Positions 1 to 3,741 of a stretch of DNA of 11,222 nucleotides are shown here, piece after piece. The stretch's first letter is position 1. The number at the start of each line of letters is the position of its first letter. Both the position numbers and the translations under genes were made by a program. The notes under the pieces were generated by a model. It was given only the letters and a program-made list of their open reading frames with translations, was not told the origin of the DNA and ran no database searches. Source of the DNA: an uncultured Ruminococcus sp. (GTDB lineage Bacteria; Bacillota; Clostridia; Oscillospirales; Ruminococcaceae); the NCBI GenBank assembly GCA_902783235.1, contig CACZQG010000009.1, positions 1-11,222 of the forward strand, read 5' to 3'.

Positions 1-185
1 TATCATTTGCTATATAACCTGTGGGATGTAGATGGCTACGTCCTCTACAAATGTGTTATGTAACTATTTTGTAAAAATTGATTTCCGTGCTACATTGATG
101 AACGTATGACTGTGAGAAACAAATTTTCCTGCTGTGGCTACAGTCAATGCATTGTGTTTTAGCGTGCTTATCGCGTCTTGCTCCT
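1..185. other. Left-edge stretch without a recognised gene
   Basis: No convincing gene is visible here. Plus-strand frame 1 is open from the window edge to a TAA at 61-63 (about 20 codons, reading ..WDVDGYVLYKCVM) and could be the C-terminus of a gene entering from the left, but it is too short to identify. Several short inverted repeats are present, such as TGTAG/CTACA within about 28-51, but none forms a convincing terminator. The rest is AT-rich spacer before the lysozyme terminator. Confidence 0.25.
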
Positions 186-192
186 ATCAAAA

Positions 193-228
193 AAACAGTA
201 CCGCAAAACTTGTTTTGCAGTACTGTTT
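193..228 (-). terminator. Intrinsic terminator of the cohesin-lysozyme operon
   Basis: An inverted repeat of two 17-nt arms (193-209 and 212-228) has a single mismatched pair and a tiny central loop. Read on the minus strand it ends in a run of seven T (plus-strand A run 189-195). It begins about 19 nt past the TAA of the lysozyme gene, as expected for a Rho-independent terminator. The core TACCGCA.AA..TTTTGC.GTA resembles the hairpin at 3138-3180. Confidence 0.85.
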
Positions 229-246
229 ATAGATCATATCAACAGA

Positions 247-2235
247 TTATTGTTCAGAAACGATGATGCTGAGAGCGTCAACGTCCATTTGATTTACAGT
301 TCCATCCTTGTTTATATCAGCCATATAAGTTCTTTCCACTGATGATCTATCGCCATCCATGTACTTATTCAGAGCTACAAGATCAAAGATAGTTCTCATG
401 CCGTCGCCGTCCAGATCACCGGGAAGCTCACTTTGATCCGGTTCAACAACGCTTATGGCAAATTCTACCTTATAGTCGTTGTAATTAATGGTTATGGTTT
501 TTTCTCCCACAGCATCCAAAGTGAAATTCATCAATGCGTAATCCTTTATAAGCTGTTTTCTGCCGTTATCAAATACGCCGTATATCTCCAGTCCTGTTGG
601 GTCAAATTCCTCACCCACAAAATATTCTGTCTTATCGGGAAGCTTTCCGATCTCAATACCTGTAAGAGTCTTTTCTGTTACTTCTATATCAAAAGTACAG
701 GTCTGATCCTCTGCCAGTACGGTTATTGTCTTTTTACCGGGAGAAGCGGAGAAGCCTTCGATACCTTCAAGATAGAACTTCTTTATTTCCTCGGTAGTAT
801 TATTGCTGTAAACACCCTTTACGGTAAGTCCTTTAACAGAAAGACCTTCGCCTGTTTTATAAAGGGTCTTGGTGGGAGGTGTTGCCACCTCTATCTTGGT
901 AAGCTTTTTGGGATTTACAGTGACTGTAAAGCTTGCAGTCTTTTTCATATAGGTTATGGTAACTGTATGCTTGCCTTCCTTCGACTCAAATCCCGATACC
1001 TCATAAGCATCCTCACCTATTTCCTTTTCAGATTTATCTGAATATACAGCCTTTACTTTAAGTCCTTTCAGATCAAGATTTTCCCCTTCGTTATATGTTG
1101 TTTTTGTTGGCTTTGAAGCTATTTTTATGCTGCTGAGAGTTACTGTCTGGGGAAGTACAGCCGTGCTGACTCTTACAGCATAGTCCAGAGCGCACCAGCC
1201 TGTCAAGCCGTTTACAGTAGTTTTACCCCACAGATATCCATCTGATTTCTTTGATTCGGTGACTGTTATCTGAGTATTGTAATTTAAAAGACCGATCTGA
1301 CCGTAGCTGAGACCCGGACCGCTTCTGAGTCTTACACCGTCATTGGAGGTTATTCTCCATACCTCGGAAGCAGCACCCGGATCGGTAGTGCCGGGATTTG
1401 AAGGATCAACAGTCTGTTCCTTGCCGTCTATTTTTACCGGACCGCCTACATAGTAATCACAGTTTTCCAGTGCTACCCACTGATCTCTGTCCTCATAATG
1501 TACCTTACCCCAGAGACCGCCCTTGCTGTCAGTTTCCTTTTCGGTTATTCCAAAAATAAAGTTATATACCATAAAGCCTGTTTTTGTGGATGAAACGTCA
1601 GGCTTTTCTCTGAGGTTAACGCCTCCGGTAGAATCAACTCGCCATACCTCGTTGTTTTTATCGGTCCTGTTTTTCAGGAACAGCTGTATCTCCAGCTTAC
1701 GTCTTTTAACAAGTCCCTGAAGGACCTCACCATTTGCCTTACGCCATTCTGCAAAGCCTCTTGCTATCTCCAAGAAGCTGTGTTTATCGGAACCGTCTAT
1801 TATGTATCTTCTCAATGCAAAGTCGCCATAGCCGTAGAAGAAATCCCCCAGAGCGTAATGAGTGCAGACCAGTGCATCGAACTGATTCTGTGTGAATTCA
1901 ACATTTTCATTGACTGCAAATCTGTTTACATAATCACCAAAGGTCTTGCAGTAATCCTTCAGGAGTTTTTCAGCTTCTTCCTCGGTGATACCGTTGGGAT
2001 AATCGTTTTCATCGCAGCGGCTGCCATATCCGATAGACCACTGGCTGTAGTCCCAGTATTTATATTTTGCAAATCCCTCGGTGGATTTTATAAGGTCTAT
2101 AGCATCCTGTCCCACGGTGTGCTGAGTTACAGCCTTTGCCTTGTATTCCATCAGGGGTGCGATCATTATGACTGTCAGGATAATGCATACTATTCTTGTG
2201 ATGATCCTGACGTTACGCTTTTGAGTATGTATCAT
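247..2235 (-). CDS. Secreted GH24-type lysozyme with SH3, Ig-like and dockerin domains
   Basis: This is a predicted exported peptidoglycan hydrolase of 662 aa. A signal peptide has a basic N-terminus, a hydrophobic stretch at about 11-29 and a probable cut after AKA (33-35). Residues about 40-190 form a phage-type (GH24) lysozyme domain: Glu53 in STEGF, Asp62, then SIGYG at 67-71, where the family usually has TIGYG. Two bacterial SH3 domains follow, each starting VWR (about 197-262 and 292-357), which often bind cell wall. Three tandem Ig-like repeats of the Big_3 kind lie at about 367-444, 445-523 and 524-603 and probably act as a spacer. The C-terminus (605-659) is a type I dockerin with two calcium loops, GDLDGDG and ADINKDG. 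The gene abuts the cohesin gene upstream (TAA then ATG) and uses the strong Shine-Dalgarno GGAGG within that gene's last codons. Lysozyme and dockerin calls are solid; substrate and docking partner are inferred. Confidence 0.9.
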   Translation of the reverse strand: MIHTQKRNVRIITRIVCIILTVIMIAPLMEYKAKAVTQHTVGQDAIDLIKSTEGFAKYKYWDYSQWSIGYGSRCDENDYPNGITEEEAEKLLKDYCKTFGDYVNRFAVNENVEFTQNQFDALVCTHYALGDFFYGYGDFALRRYIIDGSDKHSFLEIARGFAEWRKANGEVLQGLVKRRKLEIQLFLKNRTDKNNEVWRVDSTGGVNLREKPDVSSTKTGFMVYNFIFGITEKETDSKGGLWGKVHYEDRDQWVALENCDYYVGGPVKIDGKEQTVDPSNPGTTDPGAASEVWRITSNDGVRLRSGPGLSYGQIGLLNYNTQITVTESKKSDGYLWGKTTVNGLTGWCALDYAVRVSTAVLPQTVTLSSIKIASKPTKTTYNEGENLDLKGLKVKAVYSDKSEKEIGEDAYEVSGFESKEGKHTVTITYMKKTASFTVTVNPKKLTKIEVATPPTKTLYKTGEGLSVKGLTVKGVYSNNTTEEIKKFYLEGIEGFSASPGKKTITVLAEDQTCTFDIEVTEKTLTGIEIGKLPDKTEYFVGEEFDPTGLEIYGVFDNGRKQLIKDYALMNFTLDAVGEKTITINYNDYKVEFAISVVEPDQSELPGDLDGDGMRTIFDLVALNKYMDGDRSSVERTYMADINKDGTVNQMDVDALSIIVSEQ

Positions 2236-2925
2236 TTATCTTTCCTCCTCTGTACTTTCCGATACGAAGTTAAGAACATTTTCGCTGTCCTTCTCATCAA
2301 CTATTTTATTGTTGTCCGTATCACCGTTTACAAGTCCTTCTTCTTTCAGGGAGTAGCCGGTTGCCTTTACACGGGATTTGGTTATGGCAACAACATCGGA
2401 CAGACCTGTATTGCCGTCACAATTGGCATCGCCGTATTTGAAATTCTTCAATACATTTATATCGCATCCCTTTATCTCAACAGGTATCTCCTCCATTCCC
2501 GCACTTCCCATAATGCAGTGACCCGGAAGGAGAGAAACAGTCTCACCGGCTGTATTACCTCTTGTTTTAAAGGACATCTTTATCATTTCACCATTAATGT
2601 CAATATCTTTATTTCCCGACCATACAAATGTAACACTGTCATCTGTGGGGGTATTACAGTAAAATGTACCGCCTTTGAGACAGCTTGATGCCGATACGAA
2701 TTCCAGCTTTGAGGGATCAAATCCAAGATTCAGGGTATATGCTGCTGCCTTTGTATCGCCATTGATAACTGCATCAACAAATACTATATCATTCTCACCG
2801 GCATATCCGCTTTCCAGCGTAAGACAGGGTTTGTCACCCTCTTCTGCATTTACGGGAAATGCACCTGATACCGACATTGATGCTGCTATACACAGGGGCA
2901 GTAAAAACCTCAGTTTATTATTCAC
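2236..2925 (-). CDS. Secreted cohesin-dockerin adaptor (small scaffoldin-like protein)
   Basis: This is a 229-aa predicted exported protein. A signal peptide occupies residues 1-27 (cut likely after VNA). Residues about 32-160 look like a cohesin: an E-rich start, VFVDAVINGD, then AAAYTLNLGFDPSKLEFVSA, VTFVWSG and a closing INVL strand. Residues 164-221 form a dockerin whose loops are GDANCDGN and GDTDNNKIVD. One cohesin plus one dockerin is the layout of a cellulosome adaptor: the cohesin would capture a dockerin protein while its own dockerin plugs into a larger scaffoldin. The start is GTG at 2925, with AAGGAG seven bases upstream. It is the first gene of an operon with the dockerin lysozyme. 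The predicted mature part has six cysteines (34, 82, 90, 137, 154, 169), unusual for a cohesin and suggestive of disulfides. Loop residues in the dockerin are less regular than usual. Partner specificity cannot be read from sequence. Confidence 0.85.
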   Translation of the reverse strand: MNNKLRFLLPLCIAASMSVSGAFPVNAEEGDKPCLTLESGYAGENDIVFVDAVINGDTKAAAYTLNLGFDPSKLEFVSASSCLKGGTFYCNTPTDDSVTFVWSGNKDIDINGEMIKMSFKTRGNTAGETVSLLPGHCIMGSAGMEEIPVEIKGCDINVLKNFKYGDANCDGNTGLSDVVAITKSRVKATGYSLKEEGLVNGDTDNNKIVDEKDSENVLNFVSESTEEER

Positions 2926-2946
2926 GTTTGTTCTCCTTTTTTTCTG

Positions 2947-2970
2947 CTATGCATTTTGCATAGTCCTATG
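2947..2970 (-). promoter_or_regulatory. Competing small hairpins just upstream of the cohesin ribosome binding site
   Basis: CTATGCA (2947-2953) and TGCATAG (2957-2963) form a 7-bp stem with a 3-nt loop, ending nine bases before the Shine-Dalgarno (2933-2938). The same CATAG (2959-2963) can instead pair with CTATG at 2966-2970, so the two folds exclude each other. CTATG.CATTTT also recurs as a direct repeat (2947 and 2966). A role in translation control is inference. Confidence 0.35.
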
Positions 2971-3028
2971 GCATTTTATATACTATTAAAGTTTATCATA
3001 AAATTATGAATAAATTATGAACACAGGA

Positions 3029-3057
3029 ATTATTCAACATTTTTTCCTTATTTTCAA
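3029..3057 (-). promoter_or_regulatory. Candidate sigma-A promoter of the cohesin-lysozyme operon
   Basis: On the minus strand TTGAAA (3057-3052) lies 17 bp upstream of AATAAT (3034-3029), each one base off consensus. Transcription would start near 3022, giving a leader of about 95 nt before the GTG start. The AT-rich surroundings hold weaker alternatives such as a TATAAA near 2980, so the exact start is not certain. Confidence 0.5.
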
Positions 3058-3122
3058 CAAAACCGGGTGGAAAATGTAGAAAAAATAATTGCAGGTGAGA
3101 CAATCTTTTATGGTCAGAAAAA

Positions 3123-3188
3123 ACTGAGTACCTGTAAATTAAGGCAATACCGCACAAAGATTGTGCGGTATTGCCTTAATTACTCAGT
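3123..3188 (-). terminator. Nested-hairpin terminator of the flavin reductase gene
   Basis: A perfect 20-bp inverted repeat (3138-3157 with 3161-3180, loop AGA) carries the core GGCAATACCGCACAA. Outside it a second 8-bp stem, ACTGAGTA (3123-3130) with TACTCAGT (3181-3188), closes around it, leaving a 7-nt bulge. Read on the minus strand the outer stem is followed by six T (plus-strand A run 3118-3123), and the structure starts ten bases after the flavin reductase TAA. A terminator is well supported. The inner element looks like an insertion into the loop of an older, smaller terminator, which is inference. Confidence 0.75.
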
Positions 3189-3198
3189 AATGATCCTG

Positions 3199-3741
3199 TT
3201 ATTTTGCAAATGTTTTACCTTTTCCCAGCACCTTTCCCATACTAATGTAGTTATATCCCGGGAATTCAAAGAGTACGGTTGCTGCTTTTCCGAAATCCAC
3301 CTCACCTTCACTATTCAGGCATTCTTTTTCTGCATATGCTGAATCTACGGTACAGATAAAATTATCAAAGCCGGGTGTATTATAGATGCTTTCTACTGTA
3401 CATTCCATAGATATGGGGGAAACAGTGATAATAGGAAGTCCATGATCTCCCAGTGTATAATCGAACAGGAAGGATTTATCGTCATCCTTTCCGCTGAGAA
3501 TACCGCAGACATCCGCATCGGGAAGCATCTTTTCGGTAACGCTGTTAATGGAAAGCTTGTTCTTCTGTCTGATGAGTCCGTTGATAAAGTGATCCTGTGC
3601 CAGGCTTACAATAACTCTGCTGTATCCCATAACTCCAACGTGTCCTACAAGTGTCCAGGTAGGTTTTGCACCGTTTGCTGCGCCTATGATAACCAGAGGC
3701 AGAGGATATAGCAGCGGTCTTGCACCCATATTTTTTTTCAT
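3199..3741 (-). CDS. Flavin reductase-like FMN-binding split-barrel protein
   Basis: This is a single-domain cytoplasmic protein of about 180 aa, within the usual size of the flavin reductase / flavoredoxin superfamily. Such proteins bind FMN in a split beta-barrel and reduce flavin with NAD(P)H or pass electrons on; the true partner here is unknown. Supporting features are the N-terminal GARPLLYPLPLVIIGA, the TLVGHVG strand, VIVSLAQDHFINGLI, the KLSINSV stretch and the FDYTLGDHGLPII segment, which follow the family layout. I chose ATG at 3741 because GGTGA sits about eight bases before it; a TTG at 3756 is also open but has no ribosome binding site. The gene is monocistronic: it has its own strong promoter (3803-3831) and terminator (3123-3188). 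No signal peptide, membrane segment or iron-sulfur cysteine motif is visible, so rubredoxin fusion is excluded. Exact substrate is not determinable. Confidence 0.8.
   Translation of the reverse strand: MKKNMGARPLLYPLPLVIIGAANGAKPTWTLVGHVGVMGYSRVIVSLAQDHFINGLIRQKNKLSINSVTEKMLPDADVCGILSGKDDDKSFLFDYTLGDHGLPIITVSPISMECTVESIYNTPGFDNFICTVDSAYAEKECLNSEGEVDFGKAATVLFEFPGYNYISMGKVLGKGKTFAK

Follow-up and report, generated by a model that had tools for sequence, protein, structure and literature searches.

We analyzed an 11,222-nucleotide stretch of DNA (the window) from an uncultured Ruminococcus sp. (GenBank assembly GCA_902783235.1, contig CACZQG010000009.1). Positions 247–2925 of its minus strand hold a two-gene unit: a gene for an adaptor with one cohesin and one dockerin, then a gene for a GH24 lysozyme. 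Judged from sequence, the pair is probably, though far from certainly, a module in which an adaptor is dedicated to one cargo, in a bacterium whose gene inventory is cellulosome-like. With marginally greater confidence, we propose that cohesin-dockerin bonding in Clostridia also forms an independent system for holding lysozymes, with dockerin-bearing GH24 muramidase genes adjoining a cohesin gene of their own in several lineages. As part of this joint reading, the socket would take one of three forms: a membrane-anchored protein, an adaptor with two cohesins and a dockerin, or the form proposed for the window, a monovalent adaptor into a cellulosome.

The two genes stay together across the genus. 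Eight of 11 genus genomes carry both, always adjacent and with the adaptor first, and the adaptor adjoins the lysozyme gene in 8/8 lysozyme-bearing genomes. An earlier first-pass annotation of this DNA had stated that loss of this neighborhood in related genomes would count against its reading; the neighborhood is kept. The other three genomes (G003, G006 and G010) carry neither gene (co-occurrence 8/8 versus 0/3, p = 0.006, relatedness uncorrected). They retain 9, 9 and 5 cohesin matches, respectively, so the pair is not required for having a cohesin set. The genes flanking the pair form at least four different sets among the genus genomes (names by eye; the G007 contig is too short).

A protein database contains four further adaptor-lysozyme protein pairs, the partners lying on longest contigs of equal size (75604, 9135, 8540 and 7848 bases), and four homologous lysozymes labeled Porcipelethomonas. 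In a family sample of 396 genomes, eight of them of the genus and only the best candidates per genome scored, end-to-end matches to the lysozyme model were confined to the genus (6/8 genus genomes sampled). Strong adaptor matches fell in the same six genomes, and three weaker adaptor matches lay elsewhere.

Within its own genome, the lysozyme dockerin stands apart. It scores at most 80 against any other dockerin there, whereas the 63 others compared have a median nearest-neighbor score of 157; four of the 63 have a nearest-neighbor score below 80. Against the dockerins of its orthologs it scores 97–160. The lysozyme dockerin differs clearly in type from the adaptor dockerin.

The two genes, their products and their genome

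The features of the unit, all on the minus strand, are as follows.

2236–2925, minus strand: cohesin-dockerin adaptor gene (229 amino acids, GTG start)
2845–2925, minus strand: adaptor signal peptide, residues 1–27 (by eye, cleavage after VNA)
2443–2832, minus strand: adaptor cohesin, residues 32–161, type I-like fold
2248–2439, minus strand: adaptor dockerin, residues ~163–226
247–2235, minus strand: GH24 lysozyme gene with C-terminal dockerin (662 amino acids)
2131–2235, minus strand: lysozyme signal peptide, residues 1–35 (by eye, cleavage after AKA)
1690–2088, minus strand: GH24 domain (PF00959), residues 50–182
1444–1650, minus strand: first SH3 domain, residues ~196–264 (limits from model)
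1180–1341, minus strand: second SH3 domain, residues 299–352
445–1137, minus strand: three Ig-like Big_3 domains, residues ~367–597 (limits from model)
256–426, minus strand: lysozyme dockerin, residues 604–660
2233–2238, minus strand: abutting stop and start (TAA 2238–2236, ATG 2235–2233, same frame)
2244–2249, minus strand: Shine-Dalgarno-like AGGAGG for the lysozyme, within the last codons of the adaptor gene
193–228, minus strand: terminator-like hairpin of 16 pairs with a T-run, 3' of the lysozyme gene
3029–3057, minus strand: promoter-like site, ~100 bases upstream of the adaptor

The first-pass annotation had described the unit as secretion signals on both proteins (here by eye), one cohesin, two dockerins and abutting genes, and this description holds in full.

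Expression. We infer one transcript and coupled translation for the two genes, because the TAA and ATG abut, an AGGAGG lies inside the adaptor gene and the hairpin follows the lysozyme gene. Positions 1–3400 contain five terminator-like sites, compared with a shuffle mean of 2.1. The promoter scan overall was no better than chance (7 found, shuffle mean 8.6). The TAA-ATG abutment recurs in 4/7 orthologous pairs (L049, L060, L062 and L063); the genes of the L061 pair are separated by one base, and those of the L064 and L065 pairs overlap by a few bases. Five adaptor-lysozyme pairs can be read in frame across the TAA.

Adaptor. Structures were modeled for the adaptor and the lysozyme as two separate proteins, not as a complex. 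In the adaptor model, residues 1–30 have a predicted local distance difference test (pLDDT) value below 50, and the dockerin forms three helices with high pLDDT. A single cohesin and a dockerin on one secreted chain (secretion signal by eye) give the protein the layout of a monovalent adaptor. Its dockerin groups with the type B dockerins of the window genome, which sit on GH44, GH26 and GH5 enzymes. The adaptor dockerin of G007 is 44% identical to the dockerin of the ScaC-like adaptor within the same genome, and that of G001 is 52% identical to the ScaC-like dockerin of G007. The possibility that the adaptor is itself the ScaC of the genus was considered and rejected: ScaC-like genes are separate and sit in a scaffoldin cluster in G002, G006, G007 and G010, and the window pair lies outside any such cluster. 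In G002 and G010, the cluster includes a cohesin protein whose end is of the sortase type (by eye).

At L236, L247, L237, L248, L234, L260 and L239, all within the genus, a cluster of ScaC-like and ScaA-like genes stands beside a spore-germination-like gene (by eye). A cohesin fragment at L058 of the window genome adjoins the same kind of neighbor.

Lysozyme. Glu53 and Asp62 of the GH24 domain are invariant in 47/47 aligned rows (window included), and residue 67 is Thr in 28 and Ser in 19. We take these Glu, Asp and Thr/Ser residues to be the catalytic residues of the GH24 motif, in which the Asp-Thr spacing is one residue shorter than in T4 lysozyme. By domain and conserved catalytic residues, the protein is a GH24 lysozyme with predicted muramidase activity. 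A viral origin of the pair was rejected; phage records contained no adaptor at an E-value of 1e-5 (the lysozyme itself was not searched there). Scanning viral contigs with the lysozyme alignment gave three distant GH24 matches at 33% identity.

Genome inventory. The window genome (2.12 Mb, 415 contigs) is 88% complete. It has 15 cohesin matches (E-value up to 10), 10 of them, counting the window's own, above the Pfam cut-off. There are also 72 dockerin matches (E-value up to 1), and by eye the dockerins fall into three broad types. A 2060-amino-acid protein (G000:C142, L055, 2589–8771) combines leucine-rich repeats (by eye), seven cohesin matches and one dockerin, and supplies the larger scaffoldin that had been suspected elsewhere in the genome. 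Ten dockerin proteins were scanned. Five have a GH44, GH26-CBM35 (two), GH5 or pectinase-like domain and one is esterase-like; the others have leucine-rich repeats, are mucin-like or have no catalytic domain. With several scaffoldin cohesins and many dockerin enzymes, the genome is of the cellulosome type, and its source organism looks like a fiber degrader with a cellulosome-like inventory.

A cohesin-cohesin-dockerin gene on contig C70 of the window genome adjoins a rubrerythrin-like gene (by eye). Small proteins with a local match to the cohesin profile hidden Markov model (HMM) and a dockerin-like end are encoded at L060 4402–5247 (G001) and L062 4228–5001 (G004), two genes from the lysozyme and also beside a rubrerythrin-like gene (by eye).

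Dockerin-GH24 genes in other lineages

The lysozyme alignment matched named genomes at 34 loci. A cohesin neighbor is present at 19 of 30 dockerin-GH24 loci examined: the eight genus loci, eight loci with a membrane-anchored type of partner (L119, L121, L123, L124, L125, L127, L226 and L227) and L296, L300 and L304. The membrane helix of the partner is visible in 7/8 loci of the membrane-anchored type; at L227, the GH24 part is off the contig.

Six of these loci, from Oscillospiraceae or Bacillota metagenome-assembled genomes, share one layout (L119, L121, L123, L124, L125 and L127). A GH24-SH3 protein has a dockerin of two near-identical repeats, and directly after its gene comes that of a protein with an N-terminal cohesin and a cysteine-rich stalk. 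The stalk protein ends in a C-terminal membrane helix (by eye) in five; the contig of the sixth, L125, ends first, and its cohesin gene, cut before the helix region, scores below the Pfam cut-off. Some other domain calls are also marginal. Pfam does not call the L127 cohesin, which over the N-terminal stretch nonetheless shares 46% identity with the L124 cohesin. The L123 cohesin scores 24.1 bits in one scan and 21.2 (below cut-off) in another, with a dockerin not called by Pfam, and the L124 dockerin is below the Pfam cut-off.

The six genomes, whose completeness is not stated, have few other cohesins or dockerins: 1–2 cohesin matches (E-value up to 1) and 0–3 dockerin matches (E-value up to 0.1) each. 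In G400 and G402, the single cohesin match and the single dockerin match are the lysozyme-cohesin pair, and G399 and G403 have a second such pair. Not everything fits this pattern. G403 also encodes a 1852-amino-acid S8-protease-like protein (by eye) that bears a dockerin, and the Pfam cohesin match of G404 belongs to a different membrane-type protein, which has no adjacent lysozyme. Also outside the pattern, at L229 (G404:C30, 3903–5020), a GH25 lysozyme gene is followed by the gene of a 102-amino-acid protein that is little beyond a dockerin.

An order sample gave a comparison with GH24 genes that have no dockerin. Of its 394 genomes, 19 had matches to alignment A8, at 22 places in all; 20 of these places were inspected (G424:C18 and G540:C63 were left out). 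GH24 occurs with a dockerin in 3/20 (G692, G491 and G552), each time with a cohesin or cohesin-homologous gene next to it. The G692 neighbor is a cohesin-cadherin-like protein with a membrane helix (by eye). That of G491 is a homolog of the G692 partner (27% identity over 395 amino acids) whose cohesin is not called by Pfam, and that of G552 is a cohesin-cohesin-dockerin protein. None of the 14 complete dockerin-less GH24 genes has a cohesin neighbor by local HMM (3/3 versus 0/14, Fisher p = 0.0015, relatedness uncorrected). L299, L301 and L302, which run off the contig before the C-terminus and may encode a dockerin, were kept out of the 14. Some contigs end near the gene, and the L304 partner escaped the local HMM, its assignment depending on 27% identity to the L296 partner. 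G692 (99% complete) has exactly one cohesin and one dockerin Pfam match, on adjacent genes; G491 has three of each, and G552 has a cellulosome-like set of 9 cohesin and 45 dockerin matches.

Some loci combine dockerins and wall hydrolases differently. L066 (G005:C138, 1886–7169) has three tandem dockerin-bearing wall hydrolases (CHAP/NlpC, GH24, and M23 with a lectin domain) of different cleavage types and with very similar dockerin ends, between integrase and phage head/connector genes. These are dockerin-tagged endolysins in a prophage-like region; the viral contigs searched held no relative of this G005 endolysin. At L129 and L130, the GH24-dockerin proteins also contain Fn3 domains or PKD plus lectin domains. 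Nearby lie a recombinase-like gene (by eye) and the gene of a BNR-repeat protein that matches the dockerin model weakly.

Mechanism, role and alternatives

In the mechanism we propose, both proteins would be made from one transcript by coupled translation and secreted. The adaptor cohesin would bind the dockerin at the lysozyme C-terminus, and the adaptor dockerin, apparently of the kind found on fiber enzymes and on the ScaC-like adaptor of the genus, would plug into cohesins of the main scaffoldin. A muramidase would in this way join the fiber-degrading complex via a socket kept for it, and its SH3 domains could grip cell walls. The partners of the adaptor cohesin and dockerin are predicted from sequence features. 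Delivery of the lysozyme to the main scaffold by the adaptor is suggested by analogy with Ruminococcus flavefaciens, in which the ScaC dockerin enters the ScaA and ScaB cohesins (PMC5301203, Table 1). The first-pass annotation had proposed a cellulosome-like complex acting on peptidoglycan. The conserved pair and the dockerin-GH24/cohesin pairs of other lineages speak for this, but the pair looks like one item of a cellulosome-like inventory rather than a separate complex, because the organism also has an ordinary fiber-degrading dockerin set.

The most likely purpose, to which we give an even chance, is to cut other bacteria's walls at the fiber surface. Next, at a somewhat lower probability, comes a tethered lysozyme that remodels the producer's own wall for growth, cell separation or surface-protein placing, a role that is compatible with the other readings given here. 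A membrane-anchored cohesin, as in the relatives, would put the lysozyme at the producer's envelope. The GH24-dockerin genes of genus g96 and its named relatives (two of three labeled Ruminococcus), which are shorter, point the same way: a GH25 gene adjoins them, with an N-terminal hydrophobic stretch by eye (GH25 by Pfam at L102, L103, L164, L166 and L167, by eye at L163, and out of sight at L104). On the other side, ScaK of Ruminococcus champanellensis, a different enzyme from the window's, reportedly lyses other species through its GH25 without autolysis. A ‘lyticome’ for bacterial lysis has also been proposed in a review that is not about the window enzyme (PMC6403190). The earlier suggestion that wall remodeling helps to place the scaffold finds no support here.

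A less probable alternative, which we consider unlikely, is co-expression without a bond. The lysozyme dockerin would bind another cohesin, such as a surface anchor, and the adaptor cohesin would take other dockerins. R. flavefaciens FD-1 has a single dockerin-bearing GH24 protein, whose dockerin is listed in group 4a (PMC2930009, Table 2; PMC2721979); group 4 dockerins bind ScaE, and the group 4a dockerins tested bind the cohesin of wall-anchored ScaE directly (PMC5301203). ScaC of that species serves many proteins as a general adaptor (PMC5301203). No cohesin gene is adjacent at 7/7 g96-type loci (L102, L103, L104, L163, L164, L166 and L167; L104 seen on one side only), where the dockerin is Pfam-confirmed in all seven, or at the dockerin-GH24 loci L066, L129, L130 and L168. 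A dedicated neighbor is therefore not a must. The cohesin-only HMM has no match near these cohesin-less loci; the adaptor-based HMM, which contains the dockerin, matches some nearby proteins, and those inspected end in dockerins.

Further points weigh against a dedicated module. The 15 cohesin and 72 dockerin matches of the genome are many other possible partners. The window adaptor dockerin bears just a loose likeness to the other dockerins of its genome (best score 89) and is 31–35% identical to the four ScaC-like dockerins compared, and the G002 adaptor dockerin is 30% identical to the ScaC-like dockerin of its own genome. Adaptor orthologs are 22–41% identical to the window adaptor, so their choice of partner may have changed over time. 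Of the three pairless genus genomes, two are incomplete (64% and 89%) and one is 99% complete. We nevertheless favor the dedicated pair over co-expression without a bond. Pairing is strict in 8/8 genomes despite changed flanks, the lysozyme dockerin is the outlier described above, and in other lineages the few cohesins and dockerins are mostly on such neighboring genes.

It is very improbable that the adaptor cohesin also takes the adaptor's own dockerin, which would give chains that bear lysozyme or extend how far the complex reaches. In R. flavefaciens, the ScaH dockerin does recognize its own cohesin (PMC5301203), but the adaptor and lysozyme dockerins differ so clearly in type that one cohesin taking both would be unusual.

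If these proposals are right, the plug and socket of the cellulosome also let Clostridia hold peptidoglycan-cutting enzymes on or near the cell. Fiber degraders would have a wall-lysing enzyme built into their fiber-feeding machine. A genome with one detected cohesin and one detected dockerin would provide an unusually clean natural pair for studying specificity and a concrete case for the ‘lyticome’ idea (PMC6403190). The recurrent pairing across lineages is a larger surprise than the window pair.

Comparison with known systems

Lysozymes in cellulosomes are already known, and the suggestion that a lysozyme departs from the fiber enzymes of cohesin-dockerin systems has to yield to these precedents. 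A 2019 review mentions, besides dockerin-bearing wall hydrolases, lysozyme activity in the R. champanellensis cellulosome (PMC6403190). The GH24 protein of R. flavefaciens FD-1 likewise bears a dockerin; it appears as a single table entry with a group 4a dockerin, and a dedicated adaptor is unmentioned there. Sources disagree on this dockerin: PMC2930009 (2010) assigns it to group 4a, and PMC5301203 (2017) places GH24 among the ScaC-binding families. In the main text of a 2024 cellulosome survey (PMC11557425), the word lysozyme is absent.

Titles and abstract openings in the literature searched gave no dockerin-lysozyme gene accompanied by a cohesin gene; such a pair may be described in Morais 2016, Bensoussan 2017 or Peer 2009. 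Within the literature searched, a dockerin-lysozyme with its own adjacent cohesin partner appears to be new, as does a genome in which no cohesin or dockerin is detected beyond that pair.

ScaK (Morais et al. 2016) also brings a lysozyme into the cellulosome system via a cohesin. It is a single chain with GH25, one cohesin and no dockerin (PMC9210761; PMC6780208), whereas the window has GH24 with a dockerin and a cohesin on the product of the neighboring gene, which has its own dockerin. With lysozyme and cohesin on two separate genes, the window pair is not of the ScaK type. Non-cellulosomal cohesin-dockerin modules (Peer et al. 2009, as cited in PMC4035507) resemble those of the window's relatives in lying outside classical cellulosomes; in the relatives, they are tied to lysozymes and the partners are mostly membrane-anchored. 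The closest parallel to the adaptor itself is the ScaC type, which shares one cohesin and one dockerin, a type I-like cohesin and what may be a related dockerin type. The window adaptor differs in being almost linkerless, in lying elsewhere in the genome and in having the lysozyme gene as its fixed neighbor.

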